This document shows, in pieces, positions 31,003 to 31,565 of a stretch of DNA of 54,775 nt; the first letter of the stretch is position 1; each line of letters begins with the position of its first letter. A program made the translations under genes and the position numbers. The stretch lies in contig JAHBAR020000033.1 in NCBI GenBank assembly GCA_018500015.2, positions 1 through 54,775 of the forward strand, read 5' to 3'. The DNA is from Candidatus Kerfeldbacteria bacterium (GTDB taxonomy: Bacteria > Patescibacteriota > Patescibacteriia > UBA9570 > XYC2-FULL-38-9). The notes below the pieces were generated by a model. It did not search any database. It saw only the letters and a list, made by a program, of their open reading frames with translations, and was not told the origin of the DNA.

Positions 31003-31008
31003 ATATGG

Positions 31009-31016
31009 CGTATACT
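31009..31016. promoter_or_regulatory. Overlapping divergent -10 boxes for the RSH gene and the large RNA
   Basis: The 8-bp string CGTATACT reads as TATACT on the plus strand (31011-31016, towards the RNA) and TATACG on the minus strand (31014-31009, 6 nt before the RSH start codon). A possible plus-strand -35 is TTGCAC at 30990-30995 (15-nt spacer). Only one polymerase could occupy the site at a time. Confidence 0.5.
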
Positions 31017-31022
31017 CTAGCG

Positions 31023-31565
31023 CTAAAATGCTTTGCTTGACAAGAGCTCTCTTTGTAAAGTAACCTGTCGCCACTTTTACAGAGACAGTAGGCGGAGGAA
31101 AGCCTGCTGTATATCGTGTGTAGAGCTCACACTGTCGCGGCCCTAAGCCGATAGGGTGCTGTGCTTTGTTCTCGCACATGATTTGTGGGCGGTGACGTTG
31201 TTCTCCCAACGTCGGCTGGGATCGCGATTGAGCGGTCGCAGATGAACATGAGAGCTCCGCAGAGGCTCTCTGAAAGATTGTCTTCCTTGGACGCTGCGTA
31301 GAGGTACTCGAGTCGAGGCCGCAGCAAAAAAGGAGTGGTGTGAGTTTATGAAGCGAATGCGACTCGCAAGAGTCGCTCCACTGGCGATTGCCAATTAGCT
31401 TCTGCTCACTGCTGCTCATAGGCAGTCGGAAAAAATGTTCATCAAATCCCGGCAAACCGTTAACACCTCTGTAGAATAGCTTTTGATGTGTCTCTCATTG
31501 ATGCGCGCCAGCCTCCTAAGGGCGCCGCAGCATGAATAGAGCACCTCTCAAAAGCTTTTCTTTTT
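31023..31565 (+). ncRNA. Large structured RNA of about 540 nt, identity unresolved (RNase P RNA is the leading known candidate)
   Basis: No plus-strand protein is visible. The region holds many perfect hairpins: GACGTTG/CAACGTC (31193-31213), GAGAGC/GCTCTC, GCTGCG/CGCAGC (31292-31325), GCGACTC/GAGTCGC closed by a GCAA GNRA loop on the plus strand only (31358-31375), and ACTGC/GCAGT. It ends in a long hairpin (31478-31556) with AGCTTTTGA pairing TCAAAAGCT and a T tract to 31565, a terminator for plus-strand transcription. The promoter is at 31011-31016. Near the 5' end, CGCC (31069-31072) and GGCGGAGGAAAG (31091-31102) resemble the P2, P3 and CR-I part of RNase P RNA, but I could not find the distal CR-V (ACAGAA) element, and other parts do not match. 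It also does not look like tmRNA, SRP RNA or 6S RNA. Confidence 0.65.

Follow-up and report, generated by a model that had tools for sequence, protein, structure and literature searches.

The gap between rel and topA in the window (the complete 54,775-nt contig JAHBAR020000033.1 of Candidatus Kerfeldbacteria bacterium, analysed at its full length) holds, on the plus strand at 31073-31565, what looks like a stand-alone non-coding RNA gene, with a promoter, a closed domain, a terminal hairpin and a U-run. We consider it probable, at about 80%, that this stretch of about 490 nt specifies a structural RNA that stands alone, probably acts in trans and belongs to a class absent from Rfam; its annotation as a large structured non-coding RNA draws on the folding z-score, on a fold shared with the related genome G002 and on the lack of coding signal. 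Computation shows that between genera the predicted RNA retains its architecture, with compensatory change, although almost none of its sequence is preserved. The window genome belongs to Patescibacteria (48 contigs, 98.8% complete), and its nearest named Rel relatives, from Kerfeldbacteria, Magasanikbacteria, Uhrbacteria and similar lineages, suggest a GTDB class that we take to be ABY1.

The gap measures 571 nt, from the start codon of rel (31002, minus strand) to the stop codon of topA (31574, minus strand). A sigma-70-like promoter was read by eye on the plus strand at 31037-31066, consisting of TTGACA (31037-31042), an 18-nt spacer and TAACCT (31061-31066), and it places the predicted RNA start at about 31073. 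The promoter claimed in an earlier note on this DNA is thus present in the sequence, with a weak -10 element that matches the consensus at 3 of 6 bases, as do those of both syntenic copies described below; a scan for consensus promoters did not list this site. The same scan predicted a divergent rel promoter, TTGTCA-N18-TAGAGT, at 31014-31043 on the minus strand, and a counterpart (TTGAAA-N17-TAGAGT) lies at the matching position upstream of rel at the loci of both copies. The predicted rel leader in the window is a few bases long. At the other end, an imperfect hairpin (31478-31556) followed by a U-run (31557-31565) forms a putative intrinsic terminator on the plus strand (31478-31565; inverted repeat I1 and fold), in agreement with the long terminator hairpin of the earlier note. 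That note had set the RNA at 31023-31565, about 540 nt, of which the 3' end holds, while the promoter position moves the 5' end inwards and shortens the RNA accordingly. A 5' pseudoknot proposed there (CTGTC/GACAG) fares worse, since it starts at 31065, within the predicted promoter, and thus probably falls outside a transcript beginning at about 31073.

Between these signals, the RNA is predicted to form a domain of 402 nt closed by a 10-bp long-range helix, P1, which pairs TTTTACAGAG (31075-31084, plus strand) with CTCTGTAGAA (31467-31476, plus strand; inverted repeat I2). This closing helix, the key element of the architecture, was absent from the earlier note. Within it, again on the plus strand, follow the 9-bp hairpin P2 (31085-31110) with the loop GGAGGAAA, which has a pair probability of at least 0.9 in the closed domain; P3 (31113-31182), a predicted hairpin of about 70 nt that is interrupted by internal loops or bulges; and the P4-P7 ladder (31184-31465), in which long-range helices are nested and one local 5'-side hairpin lies between successive helices. 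The ladder includes a perfect 7-bp hairpin with the GNRA loop GCAA (GCGACTC-GCAA-GAGTCGC, 31359-31376, plus strand), so that the hairpins noticed before, including a GNRA hairpin present only on the plus strand, are borne out by the sequence. All folds come from one energy model restricted to pseudoknot-free structures. Compared with 100 dinucleotide shuffles, the region folds with z-scores of -5.3 on the plus and -5.5 on the minus strand, and because both strands beat the shuffles, single-sequence folding cannot pick the strand. From promoter to terminator the z-score is -5.0 in the window, and those of the three RNAs compared here are -5.0, -5.5 and -5.2. The P2 loop (GGAGGA) could pair with the TTCTCC loop of the first ladder hairpin, but this loop-loop contact was rejected, as it was not seen in the G002 copy and lies within chance by a rough estimate.

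The sequence of the RNA does not lead to relatives: blastn found no homologue in 57 genomes of the class, nor in a phage collection and IMG/VR, where a single exact 20-mer was the only match. Because blastn found nothing in the 57 relatives, we read the gap upstream of rel in relatives instead. Of the four other family genomes, two (G002 and G001) have a gap of 600-700 nt with 50-54% G+C. They represent two other genera, and each carries in the same place, divergent from rel, an RNA of similar length that cannot be aligned with that of the window. The copy of G002 (loci L034 and L043, from a public record labelled Candidatus Microgenomatus auricola) lies at about L034:884-1441 on the minus strand; that of G001 lies at about L036:872-1393, also on the minus strand. 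These two copies are in turn without sequence homologues among ten genomes of the order. In all three long-gap genomes a TTGACR-N17/18-TAnnnT promoter points away from rel, with TTGACG-N18-TAGTGT in L034 and TTGACG-N17-TAGGGT in L036 set about as far ahead of the closing helix as in the window, and 520-560 nt on from the first base of the -35 element the unit closes with a long imperfect hairpin and a U-run; the terminal imperfect hairpins of L034 and L036 are longer than that of the window and are followed by runs of 7-8 T. In G002 the gene 3' of the RNA is, by our own reading of the translation, leucyl-aminopeptidase-like in place of topA, and this different neighbour indicates that the RNA unit goes with rel rather than with a topA-rel operon.

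The closing helix offers the simplest comparison. A 10-bp P1 is found in the same place in the three genomes with completely different letters (AGTACGGAAT/ATTCCGTACT in L034 of G002, ACTTCCAGGA/TCCTGGAAGT in L036 of G001), and encloses 402 nt in the window, 393 nt in L034 and 372 nt in L036. Shuffles of the two end stretches gave such a helix with probabilities of 0.0033, 0.002 and 0.0037, respectively. Beyond P1, when the domains of the window and of G002 were each folded on their own, the minimum free energy (MFE) structures came out as nearly the same tree of P1, P2, P3 and nested P4-P7: the L034 hairpin at the place of P2 has about the same size, the counterpart of P3 is a hairpin of about 78 nt, and the order of the ladder is the same in L034 by tree alignment, and partly so in L036. 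The full tree edit distance between the window and G002 is 145-149, according to whether P1 is forced to form. In 600 dinucleotide-shuffled versions of L034 that retained P1, the distance was 325 +/- 29 with a minimum of 237, and none was as close as 149; a further shuffle control used 100 shuffles each way. Natural decoys agree. Scoring of 962 P1-closed candidates from non-coding gaps in and around G004, a set that included the known copies, gave about 226 as the smallest distance of a decoy from those copies; 1,519 domains taken from the surroundings of rel in other genomes of the class gave 212 at best, so that none of about 2,500 decoy domains came below 212. On the reverse complement the distance between the window and G002 is 299, within the shuffle range. 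Since the similarity is confined to the plus strand, it settles the strand of the RNA as the one divergent from rel, and since it vanishes on the reverse complement, composition or stability alone cannot account for it.

The tree alignment of the window and G002 RNAs has 121 of 144 pairs in common at an identity of 30% over 323 aligned columns. The covariation that the earlier note had asked for, looked for here as a fold comparison with L034, was found: 78 of the 121 shared pairs are changed on both sides, 8 on one side, and 35 keep the same letters. These counts lean towards agreement because the alignment was built from both structures, and the actual test lies in the shuffles and decoys, under which the fold of the window RNA relative to L034 is kept by compensatory change. 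The most similar stretch at matching positions is a hairpin, CTCGAGTCGAGGCCGC in one RNA and CTCCTGTGGAGGGCGC in the other, preceded in both by a TAGA-type bulge. The rate of change can be compared with that of a known RNA of the same genomes. Blastn still recovers partial alignments between the RNase P RNA of the window genome and G001, G002 and G004, whereas the new RNA does not align at all with its syntenic copies; its sequence evolves faster than RNase P RNA while the predicted fold holds.

The G001 copy is less certain. By MFE its fold was not significantly closer to that of the window than the shuffles were (14 of 100 as close), by ensemble sampling 1 of 60 shuffles was as close, and for its shorter P4 domain the ensemble test gave 2 of 100. 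As it shares position, promoter, P1 and terminal hairpin and has a marginally similar fold, we regard it as a probable member, and the predicted RNA family would consist of two secure members, the window and G002, and this probable one, all from metagenome-derived genomes. G003 and G004 have a short gap upstream of rel with no room for the RNA there, and a fold search of the whole of G004 gave no match, although the method would also miss the G001 copy. No comparable G+C-rich gap was found among 40 further rel-upstream gaps of the class, some of which hold small RNA-like units or A+T-rich spacers. Upstream of rel at four loci from other genomes of the class (L047, L048, L150 and L155), one or two short hairpin RNAs resembling transcription units point away from rel; these consist of a promoter, a compact hairpin and a terminator, and are unlike the large RNA.

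Several side observations were made in G004. Its most stable spacers were read as small G+C-rich genes. Short genes at C3:15240-15940 (L187) and C8:243900-244600 (L226) stand out by a G+C content of about 0.5-0.56 versus 0.40 for the genome, by atypical codon use and by mRNAs that are predicted to fold very stably. On contig C5 (L189, 6093-8461), the 16S rRNA gene gives two matches with about 720 nt between them; the second spans model positions 9-546, a pattern that an insertion or a partial second copy would produce.

A translated protein in the region, which the earlier note had named as a refutation, was looked for on both strands and no coding signal was seen. The longest stop-free run on the plus strand has 48 codons (P=0.95 in shuffles). 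On the minus strand the rel frame extends without a stop through the RNA gene (31003-31494, 164 codons; P=0.013 for a run of 152 codons within the RNA stretch), but this extension scores -0.02 per codon versus 0.23 for rel and is absent from L034 and L036, and a protein-coding reading, including this minus-strand frame, was rejected for its lack of coding score and of conservation in relatives.

Among the alternatives, the one that survives best, although we consider it unlikely, is a cis-acting element, in which divergent transcription or structure regulates rel through overlapping promoters, antisense transcription or supercoiling and the RNA is a by-product. The orientation divergent from rel in three genera would fit, as would the overlap in the window, on opposite strands, between the -35 element of the predicted rel promoter and that of the RNA promoter. 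In L034 and L036, however, the two promoters are separated by tens of bases, and a cis-acting role leaves unexplained why a 400-nt fold is kept with compensatory changes on the transcribed strand.

Membership of a known class (RNase P RNA, tmRNA, SRP RNA, or a large ornate RNA such as OLE, ROOL or GOLLD), masked by strong divergence, is in our view improbable. Its size and closed-end layout are similar to those of known RNAs, and a short RNase P-like stretch lies in P2, yet a search of 701 bases on both strands against Rfam release 15 (4,227 families, E up to 10) gave no meaningful match. The two chance matches to miRNA models were far below gathering, mir-80 among them being a chance hairpin of 20 bits against a gathering threshold of 68. 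Class A RNase P RNA (RF00010) resembles the window RNA in domain size and in the word GGCGGAGGAAAG, and the earlier note had left the choice between a very divergent RNase P RNA and an undescribed class. The word is indeed present, but it forms one hairpin stem and loop whose letters are lost in the relatives, the conserved core of RNase P RNA is lacking, RF00010 does not match the region even at E up to 10, and a full-length class A copy lies elsewhere in the genome (C7:51355-51775, model 1-367, 123 bits); RNase P kinship was therefore rejected, and the other half of that alternative is favoured by the Rfam result, the stand-alone layout and the fold shared with G002. Likewise, tmRNA (RF00023) is of similar size with helix-closed ends, but the check suggested earlier gave no match in the region, ARAGORN found no tmRNA in the window, tRNA-like ends are not seen, and the tmRNA of the genome was located at C36:10609-11011 (72 bits).

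SRP RNA was rejected as well, there being no match to RF00169 in the family genomes and none to RF01854, a model whose control was imperfect, as Bacillus subtilis went unmatched. The Ffh M domain (PF02978) was found in none of the six genomes G000-G005 of the order and in 14 of 14 control genomes, which makes a missed SRP RNA at this locus unlikely; in this lineage the signal recognition particle seems either to be lost or to have changed beyond recognition. OLE, ROOL and GOLLD are large ornate bacterial RNAs of unclear function, that of ROOL and GOLLD being not known (PMC12286853). Like them, the window RNA is several hundred nucleotides long, elaborately nested in its folding and devoid of an open reading frame, but neither these nor other large Rfam RNAs were matched by cmscan at E up to 10. 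ROOL and GOLLD have been described near phage tRNA islands (PMC12286853), whereas the window RNA adjoins rel in the chromosome, and unlike all three its sequence turns over almost completely between genera while the fold stays. A literature search, in which few subscription papers were covered, found no description of this RNA. Least probable of all is that the region is not one RNA gene but a G+C-richer spacer in which hairpins arose by chance, next to a terminator that serves topA or rel transcripts. Short hairpins are common in such spacers and both strands fold well, but a 121-pair fold shared without sequence similarity and absent from the shuffles and decoys, together with three independent closing helices, argues otherwise.

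A stand-alone structural RNA thus remains our preferred reading. Such an RNA would be transcribed from its own promoter, divergent from rel, and end at the U-run, and it may act through its three-dimensional shape, as a scaffold, a decoy, or an RNA-protein or RNA-only particle. Because neither loops nor helices have kept their letters, it would not be expected to act by base pairing with a conserved target, nor as a ribozyme with an invariant core. It is the position of the gene, and only that, which suggests a link to the stringent response; as a speculation, expression of the RNA may be tied to that of rel from a shared control region. On balance, and with less confidence than for the RNA itself, we favour a new class of large structural RNA, linked to rel in a family of Patescibacteria (probably ABY1) and selected for its architecture, in which a fold of about 120 pairs stays while the sequence, including the loops, turns over. 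RNAs of this kind would escape both sequence and covariance searches and may be widespread. RNA genes that such searches miss can be revealed when folds predicted independently of one another are compared at conserved gene positions. Bacteria have few large structured RNAs, several of which have proved to be remarkable machines or particles; here, a reduced, uncultured bacterium would nevertheless keep a large RNA, in the control region of rel.
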